Assembly: GCA_008923315.1 (NCBI GenBank)
Contig: WBSF01000001.1
Span: 248,001 to 312,000, forward strand
Length of the DNA: 64,000 nucleotides
Origin: Betaproteobacteria bacterium SCN1
GTDB taxonomy: Bacteria > Pseudomonadota > Gammaproteobacteria > Burkholderiales > Thiobacillaceae
Reading direction: 5' to 3'
A program made the translations under genes and the position numbers. Below, one piece after another: positions 5,098 through 43,988 of the stretch (within the stretch, counting starts at the first letter, position 1; the number at the start of each line of letters is the position of its first letter). The notes under the pieces were generated by a model, which worked only from the letters and a program-made list of their open reading frames with translations, had not been told where the DNA came from and made no database searches.

Positions 5098-5206
5098 GTC
5101 GGCAATGACGAAACAGACGGTCTGAATGCACTCTATAGCCGATTCCCGCTCAAATTGCACGGGCGCGGATGCGGGCGCACCAATTTGTACCGGATCGGGC
5201 CGCGTG

Positions 5207-5257: not shown

Positions 5258-5327
5258 ACGGTCTGAATCCATTGGAAATGAGAGGGCTGGCATGGAGCCT
5301 GCTCGCTTCTCCGGCGAGGAGTGGTTC

Positions 5328-9190: not shown

Positions 9191-11668
9191 ATGGATATGA
9201 GTACGCCCATGGGCGCCGGACCCAATATGAATCCGGAGCCCAAAATGAAACTGGTGATGGTCGGCAATGGCATGGCGGGGGTACGCACCCTCGAAGAACT
9301 GCTGAAGCTCGCCCCCGATCTCTACGACATCACCGTCTTCGGTGCCGAACCGCACCCCAATTACAACCGCATCCTGTTGTCGCCCGTGCTGGCCGGCGAG
9401 CAGACCGTGGACGACATCATCCTCAACCCGGTGGACTGGTATGCGGAGCACGGCATCGTCCTGCACATGGGCAAGCCGGTCACGAAGGTCGATCGTCAGG
9501 CGCGTTTCGTCGAAACCGAAGACGGCACGCGCGCCGACTACGACCGCCTGCTGCTCGCCACGGGGTCGACGCCTTTCATGTTGCCGGTGCCGGGCAGGGA
9601 TCTGCCGGGCGTGATCGGCTTTCGCGACATTGCCGACGTCGACACGATAATCCGTGCCGCCAGCGCCTACCAACACGCGGTCGTCATCGGCGGCGGCCTG
9701 CTGGGCCTGGAAGCCGCCAACGGCCTGATGAAACGCGGCATGGCGGTATCGGTCGTGCACATCGGCCCGTGGCTGATGGAACGCCAGCTCGACGAGCCCG
9801 CCGCACGCCTGCTGCAGAAATCGCTGGAAGAAAAGGGCATGCGCTTCCTGCTGCAGAAACAGACCAGCGAACTCGTCGCCGGCGCCGATGGACGTGTGGC
9901 GGCGGTGCGTTTCAAGGACGGCGACGAAATCCCCGCCGATCTGGTCGTGATGGCGGCCGGCATCCGCCCCAATACGGCGTTGGCCGAATCGGCCGGCCTG
10001 CACTGCAACCGCGGCATCGTCGTCACCGATACGCTGCAGACCGTGACCGATCCGCGCATTTATTCGATCGGCGAATGCGCCGCGCACCGCGGCATCGCCT
10101 ATGGCCTGGTCGCGCCGCTGTTCGAGCAGGCCAAGGTGTGCGCCAACCATCTCGCGCACTACGGCATCGGCCGCTACGAAGGTTCGGTCACCTCCACCAA
10201 GCTCAAGGTCACGGGCATCGACCTGTTCTCGGCCGGCGATTTCATGGGCGGCGAAGGCACCGAATCCATCCTGTATTCCGATCCCATCGGCGGCGTGTAC
10301 AAGAAACTCGTGCTCAAGGACAACAGGCTGGTCGGCGGCGTGATGTACGGCGACACCGTCGACGGCGCCTGGTATTTCTCGCTGCTGCGCGACGGCAAGG
10401 ACGTCACCGAACTGCGCGACCACCTGATGTTCGGCCAGGACCACTGCGGCAACCTCGGCCACCAGGGCATCAACAAGGCCGCCGCCATGACCGACGACAT
10501 GGAGGTGTGCGGCTGCAACGGTGTTTGCAAGGGCGACATCGTCAAGGCGATCCGCGAGAAGGGCCTGTTCACGCTGGAGGACGTGCGCAAGCACACCAAG
10601 GCCTCGTCGTCGTGCGGCTCCTGTACCGGCCTGGTCGAGCAGATCCTCGCTTTTACCGCGGGCGGCGACTATTCGGCCGCGCCGAAGAAGAAGAGCGTGT
10701 GCGGCTGCACCGACCACACGCACGAAGCGGTGCGCGCGGCAATCCGCGAACACAAATACCTCAGCATTCCGCAGGTGATGCAGGGCATGGACTGGCGCAC
10801 GCCAGACGGCTGCGCCAGTTGCCGGCCCGCGCTCAACTACTATCTGATCTCGACCTGGCCCGGCGAAGCCGAGGACGATCCGCAGTCGCGCTTCATCAAC
10901 GAACGCGCGCATGCCAACATCCAGAAGGACGGCAGCTATTCGGTGATCCCGCGCATGTGGGGCGGGCAGACCACGCCGGCCGAGCTGAAGCGCATCGCGG
11001 AAGTCGCCGAGAAGTACGCCATCCCCACGGTCAAGGTCACGGGCGGCCAGCGCATCGACCTGCTCGGCGTGAAGAAGGAGGATCTGCCCAGGGTATGGGC
11101 CGACCTCGACATGCCCTCCGGCCATGCTTACGGCAAGGCGCTGCGTACCGTGAAGACCTGCGTGGGCAGCGAATGGTGCCGCTTCGGCACCCAGGATTCG
11201 ACGCAGATGGGCATCGATCTGGAAAAGGTCTTTTTCAAGATGTGGGCGCCGCACAAGGTCAAGCTTGCAGTGTCCGGCTGCCCGCGAAACTGCGCCGAGG
11301 TGGCGATCAAGGACGTGGGCGTGATCGGCGTCGATTCCGGCTGGGAGATCTACATCGGCGGCAACGGCGGCATCAAGACCGAGGTCGCGCAGTTCCTCGT
11401 CAAGGTGAAGACGCCCGGGGAGGTGATCGAGTATTCCGGCGCCTTCCTGCAGCTGTATCGCGAGGAAGCGCACTACCTCGATCGCACTGTGCACTACCTG
11501 GAACGCGTCGGCCTCGACTACGTGAAGAAGAAGGTTCTCGACGACGCCGAAGGCCGCCGCGCCCTGTACGACCGCCTCATTTTCGCGCTGTCCGTGGAAA
11601 AGGACCCCTGGGTCGAACGCGCGAAGGAAGGCAAGCTGAAACACGAATTCGAAACTGTCGCCGCATGA
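9191..11668 (+). CDS. nirB: Nitrite reductase [NAD(P)H] large subunit
   Basis: An 825-residue cytoplasmic sirohaem enzyme reducing nitrite to ammonium. Domains in order: FAD/NAD(P)-binding (GNGMAGVRT near residue 25, second Rossmann VIGGGLLGLEA), BFD [2Fe-2S] cysteines around residues 440-480 (CGCNGVCKG; CGSC), a second cysteine cluster (CGCTDH; CASC), nitrite/sulfite reductase ferredoxin-like half domain, and sirohaem/[4Fe-4S] cysteines in CVGSEWC and SGCPRNC. ATG 9191 follows CAGGAG at 9179-9184. nirD follows after 14 bases. Promoter and leader elements upstream predict NtrC and NasT control. Confidence 0.96.
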   Translation: MDMSTPMGAGPNMNPEPKMKLVMVGNGMAGVRTLEELLKLAPDLYDITVFGAEPHPNYNRILLSPVLAGEQTVDDIILNPVDWYAEHGIVLHMGKPVTKVDRQARFVETEDGTRADYDRLLLATGSTPFMLPVPGRDLPGVIGFRDIADVDTIIRAASAYQHAVVIGGGLLGLEAANGLMKRGMAVSVVHIGPWLMERQLDEPAARLLQKSLEEKGMRFLLQKQTSELVAGADGRVAAVRFKDGDEIPADLVVMAAGIRPNTALAESAGLHCNRGIVVTDTLQTVTDPRIYSIGECAAHRGIAYGLVAPLFEQAKVCANHLAHYGIGRYEGSVTSTKLKVTGIDLFSAGDFMGGEGTESILYSDPIGGVYKKLVLKDNRLVGGVMYGDTVDGAWYFSLLRDGKDVTELRDHLMFGQDHCGNLGHQGINKAAAMTDDMEVCGCNGVCKGDIVKAIREKGLFTLEDVRKHTKASSSCGSCTGLVEQILAFTAGGDYSAAPKKKSVCGCTDHTHEAVRAAIREHKYLSIPQVMQGMDWRTPDGCASCRPALNYYLISTWPGEAEDDPQSRFINERAHANIQKDGSYSVIPRMWGGQTTPAELKRIAEVAEKYAIPTVKVTGGQRIDLLGVKKEDLPRVWADLDMPSGHAYGKALRTVKTCVGSEWCRFGTQDSTQMGIDLEKVFFKMWAPHKVKLAVSGCPRNCAEVAIKDVGVIGVDSGWEIYIGGNGGIKTEVAQFLVKVKTPGEVIEYSGAFLQLYREEAHYLDRTVHYLERVGLDYVKKKVLDDAEGRRALYDRLIFALSVEKDPWVERAKEGKLKHEFETVAA

Positions 11669-12041: not shown

Positions 12042-12135
12042 GCCTGCCCAAAATCGCCCCGCACTGGCGCATGCGCCGGCGGGGCCGTTTGTGCGCGCAC
12101 GCTCAATCCCCTGATTTCCATGCGATTCAGCCAGC

Positions 12136-12151
12136 TGGCACAGAGGCTGCT
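12136..12151 (+). promoter_or_regulatory. Sigma-54 (-24/-12) promoter of the ATP-grasp/alpha-E operon
   Basis: TGGCACAGAGGCTGCT against TGGCAC-N5-TTGCW: one mismatch, in the first T of the -12 box. Spacing is exact. The inferred transcript start near 12163 rules out the in-frame ATG at 12120 and supports translation from 12210. Confidence 0.6.
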
Positions 12152-12209
12152 GGTCTGGAATGCGTGCGCCTTTCAACAACGAATTTGCGCACGGTTCGGA
12201 GACTGGAAC

Positions 12210-13658
12210 ATGAAGATCGACTGCGGGCATTATCCGCTGATGGGCGGATTCGACGAGCTGCTCGAAGCGCCGGGCAAGCCACGCAGCCGCGCCGACGGGC
12301 TGTGCGACTATTTCGCCACGCTGGCGCCGGCGGAACTGGAGGCGCGCCATCGTGCGGTGGATGCCGCGATCATGGCGGCAGGCATCACCTTCACCGTGTA
12401 TTCCGAAGCCGGCAACATCGACCGCGCCTGGCCCTTCGACGTGGTGCCGCGCATTCTCGCCAAATCCGAGTGGGACCGCATCGAGGCCGGCCTGAAGCAG
12501 CGGCTGCGCGCGCTCAATCTGTTCATCGACGATATCTACCACGAACAGAAGATCGTCAAGGGCGGCGTCTTTCCCGCGGACGTGCTGGCCGACTCGAAGA
12601 ATTTCCGGGCGGCCTGCGTCGGCGCCAATCCGCCCTTCGGCGTGTGGGCGCACATCTGCGGCACCGATCTCGTACGCGATGCGGACGGCACGGTCTACGT
12701 GCTGGAGGACAACCTGCGCGTGCCCTCGGGCGTGTCCTACATGCTGGAAAACCGCCAGCTCATGAAGAAGCTCTTCCCCGAGCTGTTCGCGCGCTACGAC
12801 GTGCTGCCGGTGGACGACTATCCGGCCGCGCTCTACGACATGCTGGCCGCGCTGTCGCCCCGCGAGGACGAACGTCCCGAGATCGCCGTGCTCACGCCGG
12901 GCATCTACAACTCGGCCTATTTCGAGCATTCCTACCTGGCGCAGCAGATGGGCGCGCATCTGGTCGAGGGCTCGGATCTCGTCGTGCTCGACGACGACTG
13001 CGTCTACATGAAGACGATCGAGGGCCTGATGCGGCTCGACGTGATCTACCGCCGCGTCGACGACGACTTCATCGACCCCGAGGTGTTCCGTCCCGATTCG
13101 GCGCTCGGCGTGCCGGGCCTCATGCGGGCCTGGAAGGCAGGCAAGGTCGGCATCGCCAACGCCCCCGGTTCGGGCGTGGCCGACGACAAGGTGGTCTATG
13201 CCTACGTGCCGAAGATGATCGAGTATTACCTGAACGAGGAAGCCGTCCTGCCCAACGTGCCGAGCTATCTGTGCATGCACGACGACGACCGCGATTACGT
13301 GCTGGCCAATCTCGACAAACTGGTGGTGAAACCGGCCAACGAATCCGGCGGCTACGGCATGCTGGTGGGGCCCAAGTCCACGCCCGAAGAGCGTGCGAAA
13401 TTCGCCGAACTGATCGCGGACAATCCGCGCAATTACATGGCGCAGCCGACCCTGTCGCTGTCCACCGTGCCGACGCTGTGCGAGGACGCGATCGAACCGC
13501 GCCACGTCGATCTGCGGCCTTTCATCCTGCAGTCTAAGGATTTCTACGTGACGCGCGGCGGTCTCACCCGGGTGGCGCTCAGGCGCGGTTCGCTGGTGGT
13601 GAATTCCTCCCAGGGCGGCGGCAGCAAGGACACCTGGGTGATAGGGGACACGCGATGA
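12210..13658 (+). CDS. Circularly permuted ATP-grasp protein (DUF404/DUF407 family)
   Basis: A 482-residue predicted peptide ligase. The family signature VYVLEDNLRVPSG is near residues 162-174 and the ATP-binding glycine loop LVVKPANESGGYGM at 371-384. Family members are thought to form amide or peptide bonds with alpha-E partners, but no substrate is established. ATG 12210 has CGGAG at 12197-12201 and lies downstream of the putative sigma-54 promoter; an upstream in-frame ATG at 12120 precedes that promoter. Its stop overlaps the alpha-E start by four bases. The N-terminal DUF404 part and C-terminal DUF407 part both look complete. Confidence 0.88.
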   Translation: MKIDCGHYPLMGGFDELLEAPGKPRSRADGLCDYFATLAPAELEARHRAVDAAIMAAGITFTVYSEAGNIDRAWPFDVVPRILAKSEWDRIEAGLKQRLRALNLFIDDIYHEQKIVKGGVFPADVLADSKNFRAACVGANPPFGVWAHICGTDLVRDADGTVYVLEDNLRVPSGVSYMLENRQLMKKLFPELFARYDVLPVDDYPAALYDMLAALSPREDERPEIAVLTPGIYNSAYFEHSYLAQQMGAHLVEGSDLVVLDDDCVYMKTIEGLMRLDVIYRRVDDDFIDPEVFRPDSALGVPGLMRAWKAGKVGIANAPGSGVADDKVVYAYVPKMIEYYLNEEAVLPNVPSYLCMHDDDRDYVLANLDKLVVKPANESGGYGMLVGPKSTPEERAKFAELIADNPRNYMAQPTLSLSTVPTLCEDAIEPRHVDLRPFILQSKDFYVTRGGLTRVALRRGSLVVNSSQGGGSKDTWVIGDTR

Positions 13659-14614
13659 TGCTCGCCCGGGTCGCCGAAAATCTTTACTGGATGGCGCGCT
13701 ATCTGGAGCGCGCGGAAGACACCGCCCGCCTCGTCAACGCCACCACCCTGATGCTGATGGACATGCCGCGCGGCGCGAGCTTCGGCTGGGAGGATCTGCT
13801 CAAGGTCGTCGGCCTGTCCGAGCCCTTCCACCAGTTCTACGACGAGGCGAGCGAATCGGCCGTGATGAGCTTTCTCATCCAGGACGAGCGCAATCCTTCT
13901 TCGATCTTTGCCTGCGTGCGCCACGCGCGCGAAAACACCCGGACCTTCCGCGAGGTGCTGCCGCGCGAATCCTGGGAATGGGTGAACGAGCTCTATCTCT
14001 ACACCAGCACCCACAAGAGCAGCGCGCTCGACCGCCGCAAGCGGCTTGAAGTGCTGACCGAGATCATCCGCCGCCGCCAGGCCGTGGTGGGCCTGCTGTC
14101 GGGCACCATGAGCCGCGACGAGGCTTTCCAGTTCATGCGCATCGGCCGCAATGTCGAGCGCGCCGACATGACCAGCCGGGTGCTCGACGTGAGCTATGCG
14201 GTCAATCTGCCTTTCCAGGGCGGGCAGTTCACCGACCTGGTCTGGATGAGCGTGCTGCATGCGCTGTCCGCGCACCAGATGTACCGGCGTCACGTCGGCG
14301 TGCATGCCAAGGGATACAAGGTCGTCCACTATCTGCTCAACGATTCGCAGTTTCCGCGCAGCGTGCGCCATTGCCTCGCCGAACTGCAGGCGGCGCTCGG
14401 CGAGCTGCCCGGCGACGGCCCGCAGCGTCAGGTGATGTCGCTGATCCGCGCGCTCGATGCGGCCGACGGCCGCAAGCTTGCCCAGACGGGCCTGCACGAA
14501 TTCTGCGACCACGTACAGGCCGGGCTGGGCGAGTTGTCCGACGCCATCGGCCAGGCTTATTTCCGCGCCGCCCACGCGCAATCGCTTTCGCAAAAACAGT
14601 TCAATCTCGCATGA
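13655..14614 (+). CDS. Alpha-E domain protein (DUF403)
   Basis: A 319-residue all-helical protein starting MLARVAENLYWMARYLERAE, the classic opening of the alpha-E family. These proteins accompany circularly permuted ATP-grasp ligases, often with a transglutaminase-like protein and an Anbu peptidase. The biochemical role is unknown; it is assumed to be a partner or scaffold. Translation is coupled at both ends: ATG at 13655 overlaps the ATP-grasp stop, and its stop overlaps the next ATG at 14611. Length is normal for the family. Confidence 0.88.
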   Translation: MMLARVAENLYWMARYLERAEDTARLVNATTLMLMDMPRGASFGWEDLLKVVGLSEPFHQFYDEASESAVMSFLIQDERNPSSIFACVRHARENTRTFREVLPRESWEWVNELYLYTSTHKSSALDRRKRLEVLTEIIRRRQAVVGLLSGTMSRDEAFQFMRIGRNVERADMTSRVLDVSYAVNLPFQGGQFTDLVWMSVLHALSAHQMYRRHVGVHAKGYKVVHYLLNDSQFPRSVRHCLAELQAALGELPGDGPQRQVMSLIRALDAADGRKLAQTGLHEFCDHVQAGLGELSDAIGQAYFRAAHAQSLSQKQFNLA

Positions 14615-33036: not shown

Positions 33037-33129
33037 CCGTGGCCCGGCGATGGCGCATGCGTGCGGTGCGCCATCGCCCCGACGGGGCCGCATCCCCCTG
33101 AATGACGGGAATTACAGCGACCATGCGCC

Positions 33130-33145
33130 TGGCACGCTAGGTGCT
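33130..33145 (+). promoter_or_regulatory. Sigma-54 (-24/-12) promoter of the FAD/multihaem operon
   Basis: TGGCACGCTAGGTGCT: a perfect -24 box, exact spacing, and a -12 box with one mismatch (GTGCT for TTGCT). The predicted start near 33156 places the two leader hairpins at the beginning of the transcript. Confidence 0.75.
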
Positions 33146-33161
33146 TGAATCGGTGTGCCGA

Positions 33162-33199
33162 CCGGCAAGGTTGCCGGGCCGGCAAGGACAACGGTGTCC
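33162..33199 (+). promoter_or_regulatory. ANTAR-target tandem hexaloop hairpins
   Basis: Hairpin 1 is CCGGC-AAGGTT-GCCGG (33162-33177). Hairpin 2 is GGAC-AACGGT-GTCC (33186-33199). Each loop has six bases with A at position 1 and G at position 4, the documented recognition pattern of ANTAR antiterminators. The 3' half of hairpin 2 is also the 5' arm of the terminator at 33191, so the two structures exclude each other. NasT at 43320-43883 is the obvious partner. Confidence 0.8.
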
Positions 33200-33230
33200 C
33201 GGGCGCAATGCGCCGGGACACCGTTTTTTT
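33191..33230 (+). terminator. Leader (attenuator) intrinsic terminator
   Basis: ACGGTGTCCCGG (33191-33202) pairs with CCGGGACACCGT (33213-33224), followed by seven T. It lies between the sigma-54 promoter and the first gene, so it must be overcome for expression. Confidence 0.88.
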
Positions 33231-33249: not shown

Positions 33250-35196
33250 ATGGCGCAAATCGCACATCACGATGCCCCGCGAGTAATCGTAGGGGCCGGG
33301 CCGGTCGGTGTACGCATGGCGATCGAGCTGCGCCGCGCGCTGCCCGATGCACCCATCGTGCTCTACGGCGACGAGCCCTGGCGGCCTTACAACCGGGTGC
33401 GGCTTTCGGCGCTGCTCGCAGGCGAGGCCGACTGGTCGGATTTCACGACCGGGCTGGACGTGCCCGATACCGTCGAGACGCGTTACGGCATGCGCGTCGC
33501 GCGCATCGAGCCCGAGGCGCAACAGCTCGTCGATGCGGCCGGCCGCGTGCAGGCGTATGCCAGCCTGGTCCTTGCGACCGGTTCGCGCGCCCATGTGCCC
33601 GAGATTCCCGGTACCGGACTGGCCGGCGTGTTCGTGTTCCGCGATCTGGCGGACGCAGCCGCCTTGCAGGCCCGGCTCGTACGCAGCCGTCGCGTCGCGG
33701 TGATCGGCGGCGGTCTGCTCGGTCTGGAAACCGCGCGTGCGCTGCACCGCTATCGCACCGAAATCGTGGTGGTCGAACATCATCCGCGCCTGATGCCGAA
33801 TCAGCTCGACGCGACGGCCGCCGCGCGCATGCGCGCGCGCGTCGAGTCGGCCGGCATCGAGGTCGTCGTCGACGACGGCCCGATGGCGGTGCTGGGAGCG
33901 GGACGCGTGGCGGGTCTGCGGCTGCGCAGCGGGCGCATCCTCGAATGCGACACGGTGGTGTTCGCGGCGGGCATTCGCCCCCGCATCGAGCTCGCGCGCG
34001 ATGCGGGGCTGGTGTTTCAGCGCGGGATCGCGGTCGACGACCAGCTGCGCACCAGCGCGCCCGGCATCTATGCGGTCGGCGAGTGTGCGCAGCACCGTGA
34101 CCGCGTATACGGGCTGGTCGCGCCCGGTTTCGAGCAGGCGGCGGTGGCGGCGCGTGCGATCGCGGGCGAAGCCGTGCGCTACGCGGGGTCGCTGTCCGCC
34201 ACCCGGCTCAAGGTCGCGCGCTGGCCGGTATTCAGCATGGGCGAAGTGGCGGCCTGGGAATTGCCCGACCTGACGCGTGTGCAGACGTACGAAACGGACG
34301 CGGTCTATCGCAAGCTCGTCGTGCGGCGCGGGCGTCTGGTGGGCGCACTTGCGCTGGGCGAATGGGCGGCCCTGTCGCGCGTCCAGGAGGCGGTGCAGCA
34401 TCAGCGGCGCCTCTGGCCCTGGCAGCGCGCGCGCTTTGCGCGCGAAGGCGAACCGTGGCCGACGGGGGCAAGCGACGTGTCCGCCTGGCCGGCCGAGGCC
34501 ACGGTATGCAACTGTACCGGTGTGACGCGCGGCCAGATATCCGATGCTGTCGCGGCAGGCTGCCTCACCGTTGCGGCCGTCGCCGCGCGCACCGGCGCAT
34601 CCGGCGTGTGCGGCAGTTGCCGGCCGCTGGTCGAGTCGCTCGTCGGCGCAGCCGGTCCGCGCGAGGCCATGCCGCTGGCGCGCCGCCTTGCCTGGCTCGC
34701 CGCATTCGCGCTCGGCCTCGCATTGCTGTTCGCGCAGCCTTTCAACGTGCCCTACGCCAATACCGAAGCGCTCGTGTGGCATTGGGACCGCCTGTGGCGC
34801 GACGGCCTGGTCAAGCAGATCAGCGGCTACAGCCTGCTGGCGCTGGCGGCGCTGCTGGCGCTGATCGGCCTGCGCAAGCGCTGGAAGCGCCTCACGCTGC
34901 TGGCTTTCGTCCACTGGCGCTGGCTCCACGCGGGCATCGGCGCATTGGCGCTGCTCGTACTGTGGGCGCACACCGGCGGGCGTGTCGGCACCGGGCTCAA
35001 TCGCTGGCTTGCGCTCACCATGCTGGGCGCTGCGCTCACCGGCATCGGCCTCGCACTCTTCCTGGCGCGCGAGCATCGCCTGGCGCCGGCCCGTTCGGCC
35101 GCTCTGCGCCCGACGCTGCAGTGGATGCACTGGCTGCTGCTGTGGCCGCTGCCGACCCTGCTCGGCTTCCATATTCTCAAGGTGTACTGGTTCTGA
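33250..35196 (+). CDS. NirB/NasC-like FAD oxidoreductase with BFD [2Fe-2S] domain fused to a di-haem-type membrane domain
   Basis: A 648-residue fusion. Residues 1-400 resemble the FAD/NAD(P)H half of NirB and NasC (VIVGAGPVG and VIGGGLLGLE Rossmann loops). A BFD [2Fe-2S] domain has C420, C422, C454 and C457. Residues 474-648 form five helices; two of them carry HX13H pairs (H560/H574 and H627/H641), the arrangement that binds two stacked b haems in ferric reductases and NADPH oxidases. It would carry electrons from NAD(P)H across the membrane. The start at 33250 has no clear ribosome site. Its stop overlaps the multihaem cytochrome start. Confidence 0.8.
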   Translation: MAQIAHHDAPRVIVGAGPVGVRMAIELRRALPDAPIVLYGDEPWRPYNRVRLSALLAGEADWSDFTTGLDVPDTVETRYGMRVARIEPEAQQLVDAAGRVQAYASLVLATGSRAHVPEIPGTGLAGVFVFRDLADAAALQARLVRSRRVAVIGGGLLGLETARALHRYRTEIVVVEHHPRLMPNQLDATAAARMRARVESAGIEVVVDDGPMAVLGAGRVAGLRLRSGRILECDTVVFAAGIRPRIELARDAGLVFQRGIAVDDQLRTSAPGIYAVGECAQHRDRVYGLVAPGFEQAAVAARAIAGEAVRYAGSLSATRLKVARWPVFSMGEVAAWELPDLTRVQTYETDAVYRKLVVRRGRLVGALALGEWAALSRVQEAVQHQRRLWPWQRARFAREGEPWPTGASDVSAWPAEATVCNCTGVTRGQISDAVAAGCLTVAAVAARTGASGVCGSCRPLVESLVGAAGPREAMPLARRLAWLAAFALGLALLFAQPFNVPYANTEALVWHWDRLWRDGLVKQISGYSLLALAALLALIGLRKRWKRLTLLAFVHWRWLHAGIGALALLVLWAHTGGRVGTGLNRWLALTMLGAALTGIGLALFLAREHRLAPARSAALRPTLQWMHWLLLWPLPTLLGFHILKVYWF

Positions 35197-36599
35197 TGAA
35201 GCGATTTGCCGCCTATCGCATCTGGGCGCTCTGGCTGGCGGCGAGCGCGCTGCTCGCCGCCTGGTTCGCCTGGGCGGTGCAGACGCCGGGGGAACAGTCG
35301 GTTTTCATGCCGGGGCAGACGACGCACGCGCACCATCAGATCGAGATGAAATGCGCCACCTGCCACGGCGAGCCGTTCAAGGGCGCCGAGGGCATCCAGC
35401 AGGCCTGCCTGTCCTGTCATGCCGCCGAGCTCAAGGCCATGGACGACTCGCATCCCGTCAGCAAATTCACCGATCCGCGCAATGCGGGCACGCTGGCCAA
35501 GCTCGATGCGCGGCAGTGCGTGACCTGCCATACCGAACACAAGCGCGAGATCACGCATCCGGCCGGGGTGACCCTGCCGGATGATTTCTGCATCCGCTGT
35601 CACGCCGGCGTGGAGAAGGAACGCCCCAGCCACAAAGGCATGGCCTTCACTTCCTGTGCGACGAGCGGGTGCCACAACTTTCACGATAACCGTGCGCTGT
35701 ACGAAGACTTCCTGATTCGCCATGGTCACGGCGACGCGGCCAAATCGGCCGGTGTCGTGCGCGAACGCGGCCTCAAGGAATTCATGGTGTACATGGACTA
35801 CCTCGACGGCGAGCCGGTGACGGCGGCGGAGATGGATGGCCGGGTGGAACTGCAGCCGACGCCCGCCGTGGTCAAGAACTGGGAACATACGGCGCATGCG
35901 AAGGCCGGCGTCAATTGCTCGGCCTGCCATCAGGTCAATCCCGGGAAAGGCGGCGAGCCGGTCTGGGTGAAGCGGCCCGACCATCAGGTATGCGCGGCCT
36001 GCCACAAGCCCGAAGTCGACGGCTTCCTGTCAGGCCTGCATGGCATGCGGCTGAAACAGGGCCTGAGTCCGATGCAGCCCGGCCTGGCCGAATTGCCGAT
36101 GAAGCCGGATGCGGCACACAAGTCGCTGTCGTGCACGAGCTGCCACGGGGCGCACACCTTCGATACCCGGCGCGCGGCTGTCGAAGCCTGCCTGAGCTGC
36201 CACGACGACGGCCATGCGCGTGCCTACAAGGCCTCGCCCCATTTCGCGCTCTGGCACGAAGAAGTCCAGGGGCGGGGTCCGAAAGGGAGCGGTGTGTCGT
36301 GCGCCACCTGTCACATGCCCCGCATCGAATATCTGACGCCGGAAGACGAAACGCGCACGCTGGTGCAGCACAACCAGAACGACAACCTGCGGCCCAACGA
36401 AAAAATGATCCGCAGCGTCTGCCTCAGCTGCCACACGCTGCAGTTCAGCCTCGATGCGCTGGCGGACGGCGCACTGGTGACGCGCAATTTCATGGGCCTG
36501 CCCAAACATCATGTCGACAGCATCCGGATGGCACTCGAAGCGGAAAAGCGCGGTCAGGCGCGAAATGCGGCGAGCGGCACGGCTGGCGACGAGGAATGA
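35196..36599 (+). CDS. Periplasmic 11-haem cytochrome c, reductase-like
   Basis: A 467-residue protein with one N-terminal signal or anchor helix (residues 9-27). Ten CXXCH motifs start at residues 53, 71, 108, 132, 241, 266, 313, 332, 369 and 409; an eleventh site, CATSGCH (154-160), is a CX4CH variant. The C-terminal half (SCHGAHTF, SPHFALWHEE, CATCHMP) recalls multihaem nitrite/hydroxylamine-type reductases, though the family is not certain. ATG 35196 overlaps the stop of the membrane flavoprotein (TGATG), so the flavoprotein is its likely electron donor. The substrate is inferred to be an inorganic nitrogen compound from regulation only. Confidence 0.8.
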   Translation: MKRFAAYRIWALWLAASALLAAWFAWAVQTPGEQSVFMPGQTTHAHHQIEMKCATCHGEPFKGAEGIQQACLSCHAAELKAMDDSHPVSKFTDPRNAGTLAKLDARQCVTCHTEHKREITHPAGVTLPDDFCIRCHAGVEKERPSHKGMAFTSCATSGCHNFHDNRALYEDFLIRHGHGDAAKSAGVVRERGLKEFMVYMDYLDGEPVTAAEMDGRVELQPTPAVVKNWEHTAHAKAGVNCSACHQVNPGKGGEPVWVKRPDHQVCAACHKPEVDGFLSGLHGMRLKQGLSPMQPGLAELPMKPDAAHKSLSCTSCHGAHTFDTRRAAVEACLSCHDDGHARAYKASPHFALWHEEVQGRGPKGSGVSCATCHMPRIEYLTPEDETRTLVQHNQNDNLRPNEKMIRSVCLSCHTLQFSLDALADGALVTRNFMGLPKHHVDSIRMALEAEKRGQARNAASGTAGDEE

Positions 36600-36669
36600 G
36601 CCCGCTCGCGGGTATCTGCTCCCGCATTGCGGGATTGTTCATCAACGTCGATTCAAGGAGAGAAACACC

Positions 36670-37215
36670 ATGCGGAAACTGATCCCCCTTGCCGCCCTCG
36701 GCTGCGTCCTCGGCCAGCCTGCGCTTGCCGCCGAATGGACTCACAAGGAAATCGCCGACGCCCTCCACAGCATCATGGAAGCCGATCGGACCGTGTACAC
36801 CAAGCTCATCGTCAACCGTCTGCAGAATCAGGAGAAAGTCATCAAGGCCAGCGAACACTGGAAGGACGACAAGGCCCTCGTGCTTCCCGCGCAGATGTTC
36901 CGCTACGGTTCCGAGGCGGTCGCCGAAAAGGGGGCGAAATTCAGCTACTCGCTGCTGTCTCTGTGGCCGGTGAACAAGCAGAACAATGCGAAGACTCCGG
37001 TCGAAAAGGAAGGGCTGGAAGCGGTTCTGAAGGGCGATCCGTACTACAAGACGGAAACGCTGGGCGGCAAGAAATACTTCACCGCGATCTATCCCGACAA
37101 GGCCGTGGCCAAGGCCTGCATCACCTGCCACAACGATCACAAGGACAGCCCGCGCAAGGATTTCAAAATGGGCGACGTGATGGGCGGCGTGGTCGTGCGC
37201 CTGCCCATCCAGTAG
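36670..37215 (+). CDS. DUF3365 (Tll0287-like) periplasmic haem protein
   Basis: A 181-residue protein with a signal peptide ending near residue 20 (GQPALAAEW) and one c-type haem site, CITCH, at 150-154. The family core YKTETLGGKKYFTAIYPDKAVAKAC is present. Relatives are c-type haem proteins or sensor domains; here there is no fused signalling domain, so it is a free periplasmic cytochrome. AAGGAGAG precedes the ATG. It is in line with the multihaem cytochrome operon and could relay electrons or bind a nitrogen oxide. Confidence 0.82.
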   Translation: MRKLIPLAALGCVLGQPALAAEWTHKEIADALHSIMEADRTVYTKLIVNRLQNQEKVIKASEHWKDDKALVLPAQMFRYGSEAVAEKGAKFSYSLLSLWPVNKQNNAKTPVEKEGLEAVLKGDPYYKTETLGGKKYFTAIYPDKAVAKACITCHNDHKDSPRKDFKMGDVMGGVVVRLPIQ

Positions 37216-37224
37216 GCGATCGTC

Positions 37225-37560
37225 ATGCGCGCCGCTGTCCTGTTCCTCGCGCTGGCCGCCGGTCCGGCCGGCGCCGGGGACGCGCGCGACGAGGGCCGAC
37301 GCATCTTTGACAGGGTGTGTGCGGCCTGCCATTTCAACGATCTCTCGGAGGCGCCGCAGGTCAAGCAGCCCGACATGTGGGCGCCGCGTCTCGCCAAGGG
37401 GCGCGATGCGCTATACCGCAGCGCGCTCGAAGGGTTTGTCGGGGCGAGCGGCGAGGAAATGCCGCCGCGCGGCGGCCAGCCCGAGCTCAGCGACGAGGCG
37501 GTCCGCGCGGCCGTCGATTACATCGTATCCATCACTACCCAAAAAGGAGTCTCACCATGA
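37225..37560 (+). CDS. Small c-type cytochrome
   Basis: A 111-residue monohaem cytochrome c. A signal peptide ends near residue 18 (AGPAGAG), the haem motif CAACH is at 32-36, and Met79 in EEMPPRGG is the expected axial ligand. The pattern fits the cytochrome c5 group of small electron carriers. It starts 9 bases after the DUF3365 stop and its stop overlaps the globin start, so it is firmly within the operon. It may feed electrons to or from the multihaem protein. Confidence 0.85.
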   Translation: MRAAVLFLALAAGPAGAGDARDEGRRIFDRVCAACHFNDLSEAPQVKQPDMWAPRLAKGRDALYRSALEGFVGASGEEMPPRGGQPELSDEAVRAAVDYIVSITTQKGVSP

Positions 37561-37970
37561 CACCCCAGCAGATTGCGCTCATCCAGTCCAACTGGGCGGC
37601 GGTCGTGCCCATCCAGGACACCGCCGCCAGCCTGTTCTACGAGCGGCTGTTCACGCTCGATCCGTCGGTCAAACCCATGTTCAAGGGCGATATCGCTTCA
37701 CAGGGGCGCAAGCTCATGCAGGCGCTCGGCTTCATCGTCGGCAGCCTCACCCGTCTCGATGCGGTCGTGCCGGTCGCGCAGGACATGGCGAAACGTCACG
37801 TCGGCTACGGCGTGAAACCCGAGCACTACGACACCGTGGGCGCCGCCCTCTTGTGGACGCTGGAGCAGGGGCTGGGACCGGCGTTCACCGGCGAGGCGCG
37901 CGAGGCCTGGACGGCCGCCTACGGTACGCTGGCCGGCGTGATGAAGGATGCAGCGTACGCGCCGGCCTGA
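37557..37970 (+). CDS. Single-domain bacterial globin
   Basis: A 137-residue globin related to the haem domain of flavohaemoglobin and to Vitreoscilla haemoglobin. Phe42 in PMFKG matches the CD-corner Phe, and His81 in RHVGYGVKPEHY is the proximal haem ligand. It lacks the FAD/NAD domain of Hmp and has no signal peptide. AAAGGAG precedes ATG 37557, which overlaps the cytochrome stop. In a nitrate/nitrite-controlled operon, binding or detoxifying nitric oxide is plausible but unproven. Confidence 0.87.
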   Translation: MTPQQIALIQSNWAAVVPIQDTAASLFYERLFTLDPSVKPMFKGDIASQGRKLMQALGFIVGSLTRLDAVVPVAQDMAKRHVGYGVKPEHYDTVGAALLWTLEQGLGPAFTGEAREAWTAAYGTLAGVMKDAAYAPA

Positions 37971-38811: not shown

Positions 38812-39780
38812 TCAGTCGGCCTTCATCGTGCCTGTTTTCGGTCGCTGGCTCAAGAGCAGCTGTTCGGCGCGCGCGCCGAGGTACACGTATATTCCGAGGC
38901 CCACCAGCAGACCCACGGCGGCCAGCATCATCCAGACGCCGTCCAGCACGTGTTCGCCGTCGCCCACGGCCGACTTGAACATCAGCAGCAGGCCTTCGAT
39001 CGACACGGCGATCAGGATGGCCGCGATGAAGCGCGTGATCGTGCGGCGGGTCGAGCTGTGGCGGTACACATCCTTGTGCATCAGCACCTCCTCTTCGAGG
39101 ATGGTCTTGCCGAGGTCGAACACGGCCAGCCCCAGGGTGAGAAAGATGATGACGCCGAAGGGCTTGAGATGCAGTTCGGAGGGTTGCTCGGCGGCGCCGA
39201 AGATCGCGACCAGCTCGAGCAGCGCGGCATAGCCCAGCAGTACGACCACGGCGAAGAGGCCGGCGACGATGATGCTGTAGACGCTCTTGAAGAAAGGCAC
39301 GAAACGCTTGCGTGGCGCGTCGCCCATCAGATAGGCGACAGCTTCGTCGAGATCGATGTCGAGCACGAGATAGCCGAAGCCGTCGCCGTGATCGACCCGC
39401 ACGATCGCGGTGATGCACAGCAGGCCGCTCGCGTTCGACAGATAGGGCGCGGTGATCGCCACGCCGTCCGGCTGCTCGCGGATCAGCCGGTAGTAGGGGC
39501 GTTGCGCGCGCGACGTGCCTGCGCCCTGTCCCCCTGCCGGGTGATTGCGGCGCACCGGCAGATTGGGCGTGCGCTGCACACCTTCGGCATCGAGCAGATA
39601 GAGCAGGTCGACGAAGGGATAATGGCGGCCGGCGCAGCGAACCGCCTCGTTGCGCGCCTGCGCATCGCCGAACAGCGCCGGGCTGGCGATGCCGGTGACG
39701 ATCGATGCGATCAGCCCGTTGAGCGCCTGACGGTATTCCTCGTAGCGCTCGATGACGGCAAGAGTGCTCGGACTCGCCAT
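38812..39780 (-). CDS. PDC (Cache)-sensor membrane protein
   Basis: A 322-residue protein. Residues 1-155 form a PDC/Cache-like sensor (FVDLLYLLDAEGVQRTPN; GYLVLDIDL). Four membrane helices follow (about 168-190, 207-227, 250-268 and 281-301), and no kinase, cyclase or MCP output domain is attached. There is no N-terminal helix, so the sensor may face the cytoplasm. The ATG at 39780 is inferred from the domain start. It lies 128 bases after nrtC and 16 before Anbu, so it links the two. Ligand unknown. Confidence 0.7.
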   Translation of the reverse strand: MASPSTLAVIERYEEYRQALNGLIASIVTGIASPALFGDAQARNEAVRCAGRHYPFVDLLYLLDAEGVQRTPNLPVRRNHPAGGQGAGTSRAQRPYYRLIREQPDGVAITAPYLSNASGLLCITAIVRVDHGDGFGYLVLDIDLDEAVAYLMGDAPRKRFVPFFKSVYSIIVAGLFAVVVLLGYAALLELVAIFGAAEQPSELHLKPFGVIIFLTLGLAVFDLGKTILEEEVLMHKDVYRHSSTRRTITRFIAAILIAVSIEGLLLMFKSAVGDGEHVLDGVWMMLAAVGLLVGLGIYVYLGARAEQLLLSQRPKTGTMKAD

Positions 39781-39908: not shown

Positions 39909-40703
39909 CTACGCCGCTTCCCGCGGCCGGGCCTGCCGGTTGTAGAGGAAGTCGAGCACCTGGCTGCGCAGCGCATGGTAGGCCGGATCGTGCGCCAGCG
40001 CGAGACGGTCGCGCGGACGGGGCAGATCCACGCCGAGGATGGCACCGATGGTCGCGGCCGGGCCGTTGGTCATCATCACGATGCGGTCGGACAGCAGCAC
40101 CGCCTCGTCGACATCGTGCGTGATCATCATCACGGTGTTGCCCAGCTCGGCCTGGATTTCCATGACCGAATCCTGCAGGTGCGCACGGGTCAGCGCATCG
40201 AGCGCACCGAAGGGTTCGTCCATCAGCAGCACATCCGGCTGCATGGCCAGCGCGCGGGCGATGCCCACGCGCTGTTTCATGCCGCCCGAGATTTCGCCGG
40301 GCCGTTTGTCCGCGGCATGATCCATGTGCACCAGCCGGAGATTGTGCATCACCCAGTCGCGGCGCTCGGCGCGGTTTTTCCCGGGCATCACCTTGTCGAC
40401 CGCGAGCTGCACGTTTTCGTAGACCGTGAGCCAGGGCAGGAGGCTGTGGTTCTGGAACACCACCGCGCGGTCCGGTCCCGGCCCCTTCACTTCCTTGCCC
40501 TTGAGCAGGGCGTAACCCTCGGTTGCGTCGAGCAGGCCGGCGACAATGTTGAGCACCGTCGATTTGCCGCATCCGGAATGGCCGATGAGCGAGATGAACT
40601 CGCCCTGGGCCACCTGCAGGTTGATGTCCTGCAGCGCGCGGAAGGGGCCGCGCGCGGTGGGGAAGACGATGCCGATTTTCTGGAGATCGAGATAGGCGTT
40701 CAT
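39909..40703 (-). CDS. nrtC: Nitrate ABC transporter ATP-binding protein
   Basis: A 264-residue ABC ATPase with Walker A GHSGCGKST, signature SGGMKQR, Walker B VLLMDEP and H-loop THD. Similarity to the NrtD/TauB/SsuB group and the neighbouring NrtA and NrtB proteins support nitrate (or nitrite/cyanate) import. It lacks the C-terminal NrtA-like extension of cyanobacterial NrtC, so NrtD- or NasD-like would be an equally fair name. It starts 10 bases after the permease stop. Confidence 0.88.
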   Translation of the reverse strand: MNAYLDLQKIGIVFPTARGPFRALQDINLQVAQGEFISLIGHSGCGKSTVLNIVAGLLDATEGYALLKGKEVKGPGPDRAVVFQNHSLLPWLTVYENVQLAVDKVMPGKNRAERRDWVMHNLRLVHMDHAADKRPGEISGGMKQRVGIARALAMQPDVLLMDEPFGALDALTRAHLQDSVMEIQAELGNTVMMITHDVDEAVLLSDRIVMMTNGPAATIGAILGVDLPRPRDRLALAHDPAYHALRSQVLDFLYNRQARPREAA

Positions 40704-40713
40704 GCGTTTTCCT

Positions 40714-41634
40714 TCAGCGTTTGGTGTAGTCGAGGCGCGACTGGGCGAGCCCCATGACGAGATCGAGCGCGATGCCGACCAGACCGATGATCGCGATGGC
40801 GAGAATGATCGAAGGCACGTTGAGGTTGTTCCATTCGTCCCACACCCAGAAGCCGATGCCGATGCCGCCGGTGAGCATTTCGGCGGCGACGATCACCATC
40901 CATGCAACGCCGAGCGACAGCCGCATGCCGGTGACGACATAGGGCAGCGTGGCGGGAAAGAGGATGCGGCGCGCCAGTTCGAACTTGCCGAGCTTGAGCA
41001 CGGCGGCGACGTTCATGTAGTCCTGGGGAATCGCTTTCACGCCGGCCGCGGTATTGAGGATCATCGGCCAGATGCAGGTGATGAAGATGACGAAGATCGC
41101 CGATGGATCGACCGCCTTGAACACCAGCAGGCCGATCGGCAGCCAGGCCAGCGGCGATACCGGCCGCAGGATCTGGATCAGCGGCGAGAACGCGCGCTGC
41201 ACGTTGACGCTCATGCCCATCAGGAAGCCCAACGGGATGCCGACCAGCGCGGCGAGACCGAAGCCGGCGCCGACGCGGCCGAGCGAATACAGGAGCTGCC
41301 AGCCGATGCCCATGTCGTTCGGCCCGTTCTCGTAGAAAGGATCGGCGAGCACGGACGTGGCGTGCGTCCAGGTTGCGGCCGGTGTCGGCAGTTCGGGGGC
41401 CACGGTCTTCTGCAATGCGCTCCAGCCGGCCAGCACGGCGAGGAAGGTCAGCAGCGGCAACAGCAGCGTGAGCGCGATGCGGCGGTTGCGCTCGCGATTG
41501 GGGGGGCGGCGATGCGCGGCCGGTTCGCCGCCGGGCGGGACGGCCGGGGCGATGGCGGGCGGCTGCGACGCGACAGCGGCGTTCGCTGCCGCTTCGACGA
41601 CGGGGCCGTCGAGAGGAAGGGCCTGGGCATGCAT
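40714..41634 (-). CDS. nrtB: Nitrate ABC transporter permease
   Basis: A 306-residue inner-membrane permease. A 50-residue Pro/Ala-rich cytoplasmic N-terminus precedes about six helices; the EAA-type loop with MNVAAVLKLGKFELARRILFPATLPYVVTG contacts the ATPase. RPVSPLAWLPIGLL is typical of nitrate/sulfonate/taurine permeases. It lies between nrtA (16 bases) and nrtC (10 bases) in one operon. Confidence 0.9.
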   Translation of the reverse strand: MHAQALPLDGPVVEAAANAAVASQPPAIAPAVPPGGEPAAHRRPPNRERNRRIALTLLLPLLTFLAVLAGWSALQKTVAPELPTPAATWTHATSVLADPFYENGPNDMGIGWQLLYSLGRVGAGFGLAALVGIPLGFLMGMSVNVQRAFSPLIQILRPVSPLAWLPIGLLVFKAVDPSAIFVIFITCIWPMILNTAAGVKAIPQDYMNVAAVLKLGKFELARRILFPATLPYVVTGMRLSLGVAWMVIVAAEMLTGGIGIGFWVWDEWNNLNVPSIILAIAIIGLVGIALDLVMGLAQSRLDYTKR

Positions 41635-41650
41635 GGTCTATCCTCCGCGT

Positions 41651-43069
41651 TCAGCCGTTCAGCCGGGCAAGCGCCGCCATGTCTACCTTGGCGTTCGAGA
41701 CCTTGAAGCCCTTGAGGTAGGCCATCAGTTTCGCCGGGTCGTAGGTCATGCCGTCGAAGAAGGTGTCCGGCCCCATGGGGATGGGCTGGGTGGCGGCCTT
41801 GAGCGTCCACGGATTCTTGTTCATGCCTTCGGTCTTCCAGTCGCCGGTCGGGCAGGGCACGTTCATTTCCCGGGCAACCGTGCGGTAGATGTCCGGGCGG
41901 TAGATCGTGGCGGCGGTTTTCCGGATGTCGACCGGCCTGTCGAACTGGCCCCAGCGGTACATCTGCGTGATGTACCAGGCCGCGTGCGACAGCCACGGAT
42001 AGTTGGCGGCGTAGCGATAGAACACGTTGAAGTCCGGCATGGGCTGCGGTGCCTCGACCCTGTTGTAGCGCCAGGTACCCGTCATCGAATTGTCCACCAC
42101 GTCCGGCGGCGCATTCACGTAGGATTTGGCGGAAATGATCTGCACCACTTCCTTGCGGTTCTCGGGTTTGTCCGCCCACATTGCGGCTTCGAGCAGCGCC
42201 TTGATCGTGGCCTTGTGCGTGTTCGGATATTTCTCGGCCCACTCCAGGTTCACGCCGAAAACCTTTTCCGGATTGTTCTTCCAGATTTCGTAGTCGGTCA
42301 CCAGCGCGTGGCCGATGCCCAGTTCGACCGCGCGCTGGTTCCAGGGCTCGCCCACGCAGTAGCCGACGATGTTCTTCGATTGCAGGTTGGCCACCATCTG
42401 CGGCGGCGGGATCACGATCAGGCGAATGTCCTTGTCCGGATTGATGCCGGCCGACGCGAGCCAGTACCGCAGCTCGTAGTTGTGGGTGGAGACCGGAAAC
42501 ACCATCGCGAAAGTCATGGCTTCCTTGCCGGCAGCCTTGTCGGCGTCGATCACCTTTTTCAGCGCGACGGCGGTCGTCGGGCGCTGCTTCATCGCCACCG
42601 GGTCGGCTGCGACCATGCGTTCGTACAGTTCGTTCGAGACCGTGATGCCGTTGCCGTTCAGGTCCATCGAGAACGCCGTGATCGTGGGCTTGGGCGTCGC
42701 GCCGATGCCCAGCGTGGCGGCGATCGGCATGCCGGCCAGCATGTGGGCGCCATCGAGGGCGCCGATCGACACTTTGTCGCGGATGTTGGCCCAGGAGGCT
42801 TCCTTGGAAACCGAGCTGTTCAGACCGTATTTCTTGAAGAAGCCTTTTTCGTGCGCGATGACGATCGGTGCGCAGTCGGTCAACGGGATGATGCCGAAGG
42901 TGACGTCGGTCTTTTCCAGACCGTCGGTGCCGGCGGCCCAGGCGCCTTCGCGCACGCCCGGCGGAACCAGCGCCATCAGCGCGGCGGCAACGGAGAGTCC
43001 GGTGGTCTTTTTCATGAAATCGCGTTTGCTCGGATCCTGCAGGATGGGGAGAGTCGGGGTGTCGCTCAC
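41651..43069 (-). CDS. nrtA: Nitrate ABC transporter substrate-binding protein
   Basis: About 472 residues. SKRDFMKKTTGLSVAAALMAL looks like a Tat-type signal (Lys-Arg in place of Arg-Arg), directing a folded protein to the periplasm. The mature part is NrtA-like: VTFGIIPLTDCAPIVIAHEKG and SMDLNGNGITVSN. GTG 43069 is preferred because GGAG lies 8 bases upstream; GTG 43078 is also possible. The upstream region holds a sigma-54 promoter, an NtrC-like site and an ANTAR-type attenuator. Confidence 0.92.
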   Translation of the reverse strand: MSDTPTLPILQDPSKRDFMKKTTGLSVAAALMALVPPGVREGAWAAGTDGLEKTDVTFGIIPLTDCAPIVIAHEKGFFKKYGLNSSVSKEASWANIRDKVSIGALDGAHMLAGMPIAATLGIGATPKPTITAFSMDLNGNGITVSNELYERMVAADPVAMKQRPTTAVALKKVIDADKAAGKEAMTFAMVFPVSTHNYELRYWLASAGINPDKDIRLIVIPPPQMVANLQSKNIVGYCVGEPWNQRAVELGIGHALVTDYEIWKNNPEKVFGVNLEWAEKYPNTHKATIKALLEAAMWADKPENRKEVVQIISAKSYVNAPPDVVDNSMTGTWRYNRVEAPQPMPDFNVFYRYAANYPWLSHAAWYITQMYRWGQFDRPVDIRKTAATIYRPDIYRTVAREMNVPCPTGDWKTEGMNKNPWTLKAATQPIPMGPDTFFDGMTYDPAKLMAYLKGFKVSNAKVDMAALARLNG

Positions 43070-43088
43070 GGTATGCACTCCAAAAATG

Positions 43089-43119
43089 AAAAAGGCGCCG
43101 CCTCAGGGGGGACGCCTTT
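43089..43119 (-). terminator. Leader (attenuator) terminator of nrtA
   Basis: On the minus strand AAAGGCGTC pairs with GGCGCCTTT (nine pairs with one G-T) and is followed by a five-T run. It ends 20 bases before the chosen nrtA start, inside the leader. Confidence 0.8.
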
Positions 43120-43168
43120 GTCCGGATGAAAAACGGGTCGTCAGACTGAAAGCCACGTCGTTGCGACT
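43110..43168 (-). promoter_or_regulatory. ANTAR-target tandem hexaloop hairpins of nrtA
   Basis: Read on the minus strand, hairpin 1 is AGTCGC-AACGAC-GTGGCT (43151-43168) and hairpin 2 is GGAC-AAAGGC-GTCC (43110-43123). Both loops have six bases with A1 and G4. Hairpin 2 overlaps the 5' arm of the terminator at 43089-43119, as in the 33.2 kb leader, and its GGAC/GTCC stem is the same. Confidence 0.78.
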
Positions 43169-43319: not shown

Positions 43320-43883
43320 TCATGTGGGTTTCTGCAGAATCTGGCGCGCGATGTCGACCAGCTTGAGTCCGCGATCCATCGCCGCGCGCCGCATTTCGCG
43401 GTAGACCTCGGGTTCGGAGGCACCGGTCTGCTTGATCAGCAGCGCCTTGGCCTGGTCGATGAGCTTGCGTTCCGAGAGTTCGAGGCGCGTCTGTTCGAGC
43501 TGGTCGTGCAAAGCCTGATAGGCCTCGAAACGCGAGACGGCAACATCGAGGATGGGACGCAGCCGAACGGGGTCGAGGCCGTCGACCACATAGGATGTCA
43601 CGCCCGCCTGCATGGCGGCGCGGATCGAATCGGTGCTGCCGTCGCCGGTGAACATGACGATGGGGCGCGGGCAGCCCTGGTTGGCGACGCAGATGTTTTC
43701 GAGCGTGTCGCGGTCGGGCGAGTCGGTGGCGATGATGACCACGTCCGGGCGCAGTACCTGGATCTGTGCGTCCAGACTGCGGGCGGAATTGAGCGTCGCC
43801 GCCACCACGCAGCCCGCGGCTTCGAGCGCGGGCGCCAGCATCGCCAGGCGGTCGGGTTGGTTTTCGACGATCAATACACGCAT
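43320..43883 (-). CDS. nasT: ANTAR-domain response-regulator-type antiterminator, NasT-like
   Basis: A 187-residue protein. A receiver-like domain (MRVLIVENQPDRLAML; DVVIIATDS) is followed by a coiled coil and an ANTAR RNA-binding domain (KLIDQAKALLIKQTGASEPEVYREMRRAAMD). NasT proteins bind tandem hexaloop hairpins and prevent termination when nitrate or nitrite is present. No NasS sensor is adjacent; the NrtA-like protein next door could be confused with NasS, but its signal peptide argues against that. ATG 43883 has ACGGAAG just upstream. Its own leader carries a terminator. Confidence 0.9.
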   Translation of the reverse strand: MRVLIVENQPDRLAMLAPALEAAGCVVAATLNSARSLDAQIQVLRPDVVIIATDSPDRDTLENICVANQGCPRPIVMFTGDGSTDSIRAAMQAGVTSYVVDGLDPVRLRPILDVAVSRFEAYQALHDQLEQTRLELSERKLIDQAKALLIKQTGASEPEVYREMRRAAMDRGLKLVDIARQILQKPT

Positions 43884-43919
43884 TGCGCTTCCGTTTGCCG
43901 CGGACCTCCGGCCATCCAC

Positions 43920-43947
43920 AAAAAAAAGCGGCCTCCGGAGAGGCCGC
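43920..43947 (-). terminator. Strong intrinsic terminator in the nasT leader
   Basis: Minus strand GCGGCCTC-TCCG-GAGGCCGC followed by eight T. It lies between the putative nasT promoter and the nasT start, so it is either an attenuator of nasT or the terminator for transcription from the PEP-CTERM gene upstream. Confidence 0.85.
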
Positions 43948-43971
43948 AGGATCGGAGGAGACTGCCTGAGC

Positions 43972-43988
43972 AACCTGGCCTTTCGGTT
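43972..43988 (-). promoter_or_regulatory. Single ANTAR-type hexaloop hairpin in the nasT leader
   Basis: Minus strand AACCG-AAAGGC-C(A)GGTT: a five-pair stem with one bulged A and a six-base loop with A1 and G4. A second canonical hairpin overlapping the terminator was not found, so control of nasT by its own product is only tentative. Confidence 0.4.

Follow-up and report, generated by a model that had tools for sequence, protein, structure and literature searches.

The window analysed here, 64,000 nucleotides (nt) of Betaproteobacteria bacterium SCN1 (contig WBSF01000001.1, positions 248,001 to 312,000), carries a gene cassette that we read as a candidate electron line from cytoplasmic NAD(P)H to the periplasm. 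Its first gene encodes a 648-aa flavoprotein (FP; 33250..35196, +) that joins a NirB-like flavin adenine dinucleotide (FAD)/NAD(P)H module, a BFD [2Fe-2S] domain and a five-helix membrane part containing the histidines H560/H574 and H627/H641. The second encodes a 467-aa cytochrome (CYT; 35196..36599, +) with an N-terminal hydrophobic helix (residues 3-29) and 11 haem c motifs, and the FP stop codon TGA (35194-35196) overlaps the CYT ATG (from 35196) by one base. Downstream follow a Tll0287-like protein of the DUF3365 (sCache_heme) family (36670..37215, +; Pfam E 1.2e-21), which has a signal peptide-like N-terminus and one CxxCH, a small mono-haem cytochrome c that also has a signal peptide-like N-terminus (37225..37560, +), and a single-domain globin related to the haem domain of flavohaemoglobin, with no signal peptide by eye (37557..37970, +). 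This is the arrangement given in an initial annotation of the same DNA, and we find the fusion with its two HX13H pairs, the overlapping start of an 11-haem cytochrome and the order of the genes after it just as described there.

FP has Pfam matches to Pyr_redox_2 (E 1.8e-55), Rubredoxin_C and Fer2_BFD (residues 418-465, E 2.8e-13), while the C-terminal ~180 residues match no Pfam family above cut-off. The nearest NCBIfam model is NirB (TIGR02374), of which positions 2-470 align at 378.8 bits against a cut-off of 578, and the Pfam scan found neither of the sirohaem/4Fe-4S nitrite reductase domains (PF01077, PF03460) in FP. An ordinary NirB called wrongly was rejected, the NirB match being partial and below cut-off. 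In the AlphaFold2 model of FP (mean predicted local distance difference test score 89.3) the helices past the BFD domain span residues 477-493, 519-541, 553-575, 582-606 and 613-631/633-647; H560 and H574 lie on helix 553-575, H627 and H641 on helices 613-631 and 633-647. The last helix ends the protein at residue 648, so that a C-terminal FNR-type FAD/NAD(P)H domain has no place in it. A conserved RKR after helix 519-541 and a basic loop after helix 582-606 fit the cytoplasmic side under the positive-inside rule, so that the FAD-BFD half would face the cytoplasm and the C-terminus the outside.

All four membrane histidines (H560, H574, H627, H641) and the four BFD cysteines (C420, C422, C454, C457) are invariant in an alignment of 113 sequences, which comprise the query and the 112 relatives left from the 120 listed once 8 sequences of at most 600 aa had been dropped (at least 149 relatives were found, scoring having been confined to candidates that share most words). 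Other histidines of the membrane part vary, H609 being kept in 102 of the 113, and a second alignment (A1, 93 sequences) agrees with this conservation. Across the 80 cassette loci described below the four histidines are kept in 78-79, the remainder being gaps, with the reservation that the His641 column is biased, one locus search pattern having ended in that residue. As a separate observation, C233 and C279 of the FAD half are likewise invariant in the 113 sequences; across the 80 loci C233 occurs in 68 and C279 in 77 (3 gaps).

When 13 FP members were scanned against Pfam, recurring weak matches appeared in the membrane part, to DUF4405 in 6 (best E 0.0024) and to Ferric_reduct (PF01794) in 3 (best E 0.016, scores far under 28 bits), the latter family giving no match in FP itself. 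Both are families of di-haem b proteins, and in several single members the matching stretch spans the helix of the first His pair. Because single members match unrelated families at a like or better E (Cation_ATPase_C, for example, at 0.00052), these matches are slight evidence of kinship. A PDB profile search with the C-terminal part of FP returned BFD proteins and then, from E 0.016 on, unrelated ones, and a structure search with the whole protein had its rows filled by the FAD half, so the FAD half alone was compared. From the helices and histidine pairs, two b haems are predicted for the membrane part.

The haem motifs of CYT are ten CxxCH and one CX4CH; all end in CH, no CxxCK being found among them, and their 33 Cys/Cys/His positions are invariant in 66 of 66 sequences. 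The six-motif C-terminal half has its best matches in NrfA and octahaem nitrite reductase (E 4.6e-9 to 1e-8), and the score against PF02335, the family of both, is 17.1 bits, under the cut-off of 24.1. For the N-terminal motifs (residues 46-136) the best match is Cytochrom_c3_2, an electron-transfer family. In the structure comparison HAO-type structures top the VIA rows, with weak rows for the Mtr complex and NrfB. CYT is remotely related to NrfA and octahaem nitrite reductase, and its predicted location is the periplasm, where an anchor would hold it. Separately, across 52 sequences including the query, the divergence of the FP membrane part tracks that of CYT (r 0.81) more closely than that of the FAD half of FP (r 0.69), both being bare r values.

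The initial annotation had proposed a search for the fusion elsewhere and for conservation of its multihaem neighbour, and both recur. A scan of one genome per species with the BFD-membrane region of FP gave 130 relatives, of which 80 loci were kept; their records are labelled as alpha-, beta- or gammaproteobacteria or as Proteobacteria without further placement, and one as a metagenome-assembled genome (MAG) of Phycisphaera. Among the carriers are Methyloversatilis thermotolerans (L030), a Thiobacillus (L008) and Filomicrobium insigne (L083), which has no NirB over cut-off. A matching CYT adjoins FP in all 80, its match beginning at most 300 nt from the FP end in 78 by rule and adjoining FP in the other two, where the BLAST segments are split. 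The same annotation had named beforehand three results that would speak against it, namely a membrane part aligning to a non-haem family, unconserved His pairs, or no co-occurrence with the cytochrome; none of these was found.

Among the 70 loci with at least 3500 nt of sequence left, the DUF3365 protein lies downstream in 69, the globin in 51 and the small cytochrome c in 33 (by tblastn); a second test, for any small CxxCH open reading frame (ORF) after DUF3365, found one in 31 of 69. The globin was not found within 3.5 kb downstream in the remaining 19 of the 70. Some loci depart from the common order. One (L063) has its globin (8307-8699) upstream of FP and not downstream, a rearrangement of the cassette. 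Another, on a complete MAG chromosome (L025, 10813-11193), is a shortened or broken variant in which the CYT match is confined to residues 33-159, with the five N-terminal motifs; no DUF3365 was matched there, and no NirB over cut-off.

Of 398 genomes sampled evenly from the window's phylum (Pseudomonadota), three hold a near full-length CYT, and the same three have the FP membrane part among the matches listed; CYT gave some match in 74 genomes, all but three partial, and FP in 255, where the listed matches beyond the three span the BFD part. In one of the three (G141) the match to FP is split in two and a single stop interrupts CYT. For the window's own family, the sample has CYT at E 1e-60 in 3 of 61 genomes, all of the window's genus (3 of 12, the window's genome included), a patchy spread that suggests gain and loss.

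In front of FP lies a leader composed of a hairpin P1 (CCGGC-AAGGTT-GCCGG; 33162..33177, +), a hairpin P2 (GGAC-AACGGT-GTCC; 33186..33199, +), both with a hexaloop of the A1/G4 type, and an intrinsic terminator (33190..33225, +). The 13-pair stem of the latter starts inside P2, overlapping its loop and 3' arm, and is followed by a T run 24 bases ahead of the FP ATG; the fold has a z of -5.3. In the available part of PMC3369931, dual hexaloop hairpins with A1 and G4 before an overlapping terminator are described as the antiterminator of ANTAR regulators. By its sequence, the operon leader has this two-hexaloop-plus-terminator anatomy of NasT/ANTAR antitermination. A strict scan of both strands makes it the sole full-pattern match in the window. 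In the 72 of 80 loci with an upstream stretch of 350 nt or more and with a match close to the FP start, the full pattern occurs in 5 FP upstreams, compared with 1 among 6382 control windows drawn from these loci, and the P2 word GGACAnnGnnGTCC in 17. That word occurs 26 further times in the same loci, 18 of them with TTTTT within 70 nt downstream (background 5.6%), and four of the 8 without it come from reading the FP leader, which is nearly palindromic, on its other strand; in the window's own genome the P2 word alone is not above the reversed control. A consensus terminator scan left out the leader terminator that was seen by the fold and by a dedicated scan. Rfam matched the leader (33118-33222) below threshold to P11 (RF00625, 'Pseudomonas sRNA', where sRNA stands for small RNA; 25.7 of 70 bits, E 0.0011), and P11 may itself be an ANTAR/NasT leader and not an sRNA.

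Shared control with nirBD and nrtABC had been assumed for the operon, and the second half of this assumption is borne out in part. Before nrtA stand a P2-type hairpin (GGAC-AAAGGC-GTCC; 43110..43123, -), followed by an imperfect stem and a T run, and by eye a P1-type hairpin (GTCGC-AACGAC-GTGGC; 43152..43167, -); this leader resembles that of FP, is less perfect and failed the strict scan. By the same leader rules none was found before the window's NirB or nitrate reductase-like genes. A NasT-like response regulator with an ANTAR domain (E 1.3e-16; 43320..43973, -) is the candidate regulator. These features support a putative NasT/ANTAR-type control of the cassette; NasS-NasT has been reported, in the part of PMC3795266 available, as a nitrate/nitrite sensor.

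The window holds further nitrogen genes: nrtA-, nrtB- and nrtC-like genes of a nitrate/nitrite ABC transporter (39909..43078, -), named by reading the ORFs and the recurring neighbour clusters, the nrtA-like gene giving no NCBIfam match at E 1e-10; a nitrate reductase-type molybdopterin oxidoreductase that includes a BFD domain (5169-8009) and has its NCBIfam matches all below cut-off; and a NirB over cut-off (9191-11668). Similar neighbours recur across the 80 loci, with NrtA-like proteins in 29, NrtB-like in 18, NrtC-like in 14 and NasT-like in 15, by names read from cluster representatives. NirB is over cut-off in 37 of 40 cassette genomes (a count covering 40 of the 80 loci, with misses in G406, G411 and G430) versus 185 of 398 in the background, kinship uncorrected, and in two of the three cassette genomes inside that background. 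The NrfA family at E 1e-30 was found in 0 of 41 cassette genomes, NirK over cut-off in 1 and the NirS family at E 1e-30 in 10, neither of the last two in the window's own genome. Two roles were rejected on these counts: that of a replacement for the cytoplasmic nitrite reductase, given the NirB in 37 of 40, and that of a denitrification module, at least as a rule, given the scarcity of NirK and NirS. Since NirB is present in most carriers examined, our reading of the gene content is that the cassette would be an added periplasmic arm of nitrate assimilation, not a replacement.

Taken together, we give an even chance to an NAD(P)H-driven, quinone-independent line that would run through FP to the periplasmic CYT, which would reduce a nitrogen oxide (N-oxide) alongside nitrate assimilation. 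The electron path is well supported by the sequences, whereas the catalysis and the substrate are inferred; here the initial annotation, which had proposed nitrite, hydroxylamine or nitric oxide (NO), stands in its architecture, conservation and nitrate link, its catalytic part being unproven. As the simplest reading that uses all parts, electrons would pass from NAD(P)H to FAD, [2Fe-2S], an inner haem b, an outer haem b, CYT and finally the N-oxide. The two His helices of FP would lie parallel, H560 and H627 holding the inner haem and H574 and H641 the outer one, at which the anchored CYT would dock. No energy would be conserved along this path, the electrons going outward as in NOX-type enzymes, which would suit scavenging or detoxification and not respiration. 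NasT, freed by nitrate or nitrite, would bind the two hexaloops and cause read-through of the leader terminator. The leader type, the remote kinship of CYT to N-oxide enzymes and the globin together point to nitrite or NO, and CYT likely reduces nitrite, or NO derived from it, that nitrate assimilation would otherwise let escape. In the cytoplasm NO would be cleared by the globin; in the periplasm the DUF3365 and small cytochrome c proteins would accept electrons or hand them on, or bind NO.

Some observations call for caution or favour other readings. CYT has 12 conserved His for its 11 haems, which permits all-bis-His ligation, and its N-terminal motifs resemble the electron-transfer family named above; moreover, predicted hairpins in Bradyrhizobium are no guarantee of activation by NasT, according to the accessible part of PMC6759348. 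The first two would fit a CYT that is no more than a wire, the line from FP being real and CYT catalysing nothing itself, its electrons going on to DUF3365, to the small cytochrome c or, outside the cell, to an acceptor such as Fe(III). The near-constant DUF3365 gene downstream (69/70) would agree with it, as would the Mtr complex and NrfB rows, both weak, of the structure comparison. However, the C-terminal half of CYT is closest to NrfA and octahaem nitrite reductase, the NasT-type leader and nrt neighbours indicate nitrogen oxides, and a porin is no constant neighbour, a porin-like cluster (named by reading) occurring in 6 of 80 loci. We consider a mere wire unlikely.

It is less likely again that the cassette serves mainly as an NO defence unit of nitrate assimilation, in which CYT would reduce NO in the periplasm and the globin handle it in the cytoplasm, as in the Bjgb proposal for Bradyrhizobium. 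The globin, present in 51 of 70 loci, favours such a unit, and so does the DUF3365 protein. The window's copy has, past its first 21 residues, no Cys outside CxxCH; in the cassette proteins generally the CxxCH Cys are the sole conserved ones (Cys, Cys and His kept in 76 of 76 loci), while 17 of 77 have a further Cys, which among the rows listed sits in the first 17 residues. As far as the available text of PMC12889525 goes, the redox-type stand-alone sCache_heme protein has an axial Cys and an NO-binding member is without it, as the cassette proteins are, which hints at NO binding. The hint is only suggestive, because the P. putida C59A variant, in which the axial Cys of the redox type is replaced by Ala, still bound NO, weakly (PMC12889525). 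The Bjgb/Flp system, in the part of PMC4724949 available, is also NasT-linked and NO-protective. Against a dedicated defence unit speak the 19 of 70 loci with no globin within 3.5 kb downstream and the NirK and NirS counts, which imply that respiratory NO is not the usual source.

Still less probable is a membrane part without haem, FP then being a membrane-anchored NADH dehydrogenase, to quinone for example. It would account for the absence of any Pfam family above cut-off in that part, yet it leaves unexplained the invariance of the two HX13H pairs, the recurring weak DUF4405 and Ferric_reduct matches, which in several members cover the first His helix, and the strict pairing of FP with CYT. 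In the opposite case electrons would flow inward, CYT taking them from hydroxylamine or a different periplasmic donor and FP delivering them to NAD(P)+. The HAO-type structures that top the VIA rows speak for it, yet it is very unlikely: with such donors the reduction of NAD+ is uphill and would need a drive, modules like those of NirB and rubredoxin reductase normally pass electrons outward from NADH, and the leader type fits nitrate or nitrite.

The N-oxide-reducing line that we prefer has partial counterparts in several known systems. FP shares with NirB the FAD/NAD(P)H module, Rubredoxin_C and the BFD domain, and has the five-helix membrane part where NirB carries its NIR_SIR sirohaem/4Fe-4S part. 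With the di-haem b proteins of the ferric reductase/NOX/MsrQ family (PF01794) it shares two HX13H pairs in two helices with one helix between them and, presumably, a transmembrane flow from NAD(P)H to the outside. In that family the flavin module is C-terminal and FNR-like; FP differs by its sub-threshold Pfam score, its N-terminal NirB-like flavin module and the extra [2Fe-2S] relay. CYT is remotely similar in its six-motif half to NrfA and the octahaem nitrite reductases (NrfHA, TvNiR), most of which have a CxxCK (Lys-ligated) catalytic haem, and differs in its 11 motifs, the lack of CxxCK and a five-motif N-terminal extension with a membrane helix. Its partner is a flavoprotein, in contrast to NrfH, the quinol-oxidising partner of NrfA. 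To our knowledge, the known periplasmic multihaem nitrite reductases all take their electrons from quinol.

The nearest functional analogue would be the Bradyrhizobium narK-bjgb-flp-nasC set, likewise a NasT-linked nitrate assimilation set with a single-domain globin and an NAD(P)H flavoprotein, which in the available text protect against NO from nitrate assimilation; the operon genes named in that text include no multihaem cytochrome, nor does it mention a fusion of Flp to a BFD domain or membrane part (PMC4724949). The Uet undecahaem pathway of Tenderia, likened here by description, also has an 11-haem cytochrome and is described, in the parts of its sources available, with a porin and tri- and tetrahaem cytochromes (PMC5371394, PMC10734462). 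The third cassette gene belongs to the sCache_heme/DUF3365 family; the cassette members are without the axial Cys of the redox type, and the main text of the available source nowhere uses the words operon, genomic context or multiheme (PMC12889525). The initial annotation had known of no described system with this fusion, and our search of the open-access literature returned no entry that, as listed, describes an FP-type fusion with a multihaem cytochrome, most subscription papers lying outside that search, so that absence is unproven. The kinds of part are known and their combination is new as far as searched, which leaves a fair chance of a distinct class. Tentatively, and with somewhat less confidence than in the line itself, we propose a new class of transmembrane enzyme, a single-polypeptide NAD(P)H-FAD-[2Fe-2S]-di-haem b reductase of alpha-, beta- and gammaproteobacteria that would bypass the quinone pool, drive an 11-haem periplasmic N-oxide reductase and be switched on by NasT, as a branch of nitrate assimilation in the periplasm. 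If true, direct supply from NAD(P)H by one fused protein would be a new way across the inner membrane, a periplasmic multihaem reductase could work without the respiratory chain, and nitrate-assimilating bacteria would gain a periplasmic arm catching nitrite or NO. It would also give a testable role to proteins labelled 'nitrite reductase (NADH) large subunit', 'FAD-dependent oxidoreductase' or 'cytochrome c3 family protein'.

Some other genes of the window are of note. An HD-domain protein with DUF3391 (3868-5241, -) adjoins the nitrate reductase-like gene and weakly matches a response regulator model named NosR (82.9 of 400 bits). The nrtC-like gene is followed downstream, inside a 586-aa ORF, by a plausible membrane protein (38812-39780, -) whose N-terminal half looks sensor-like by eye. 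A proteasome-like protein (PF00227; 38013-38795, -), which we take to be Anbu-like, is encoded 23 kb from a stretch for a circularly permuted ATP-grasp and an Alpha-E protein (12120-14614, +), and proteins of these two kinds are partners of Anbu.

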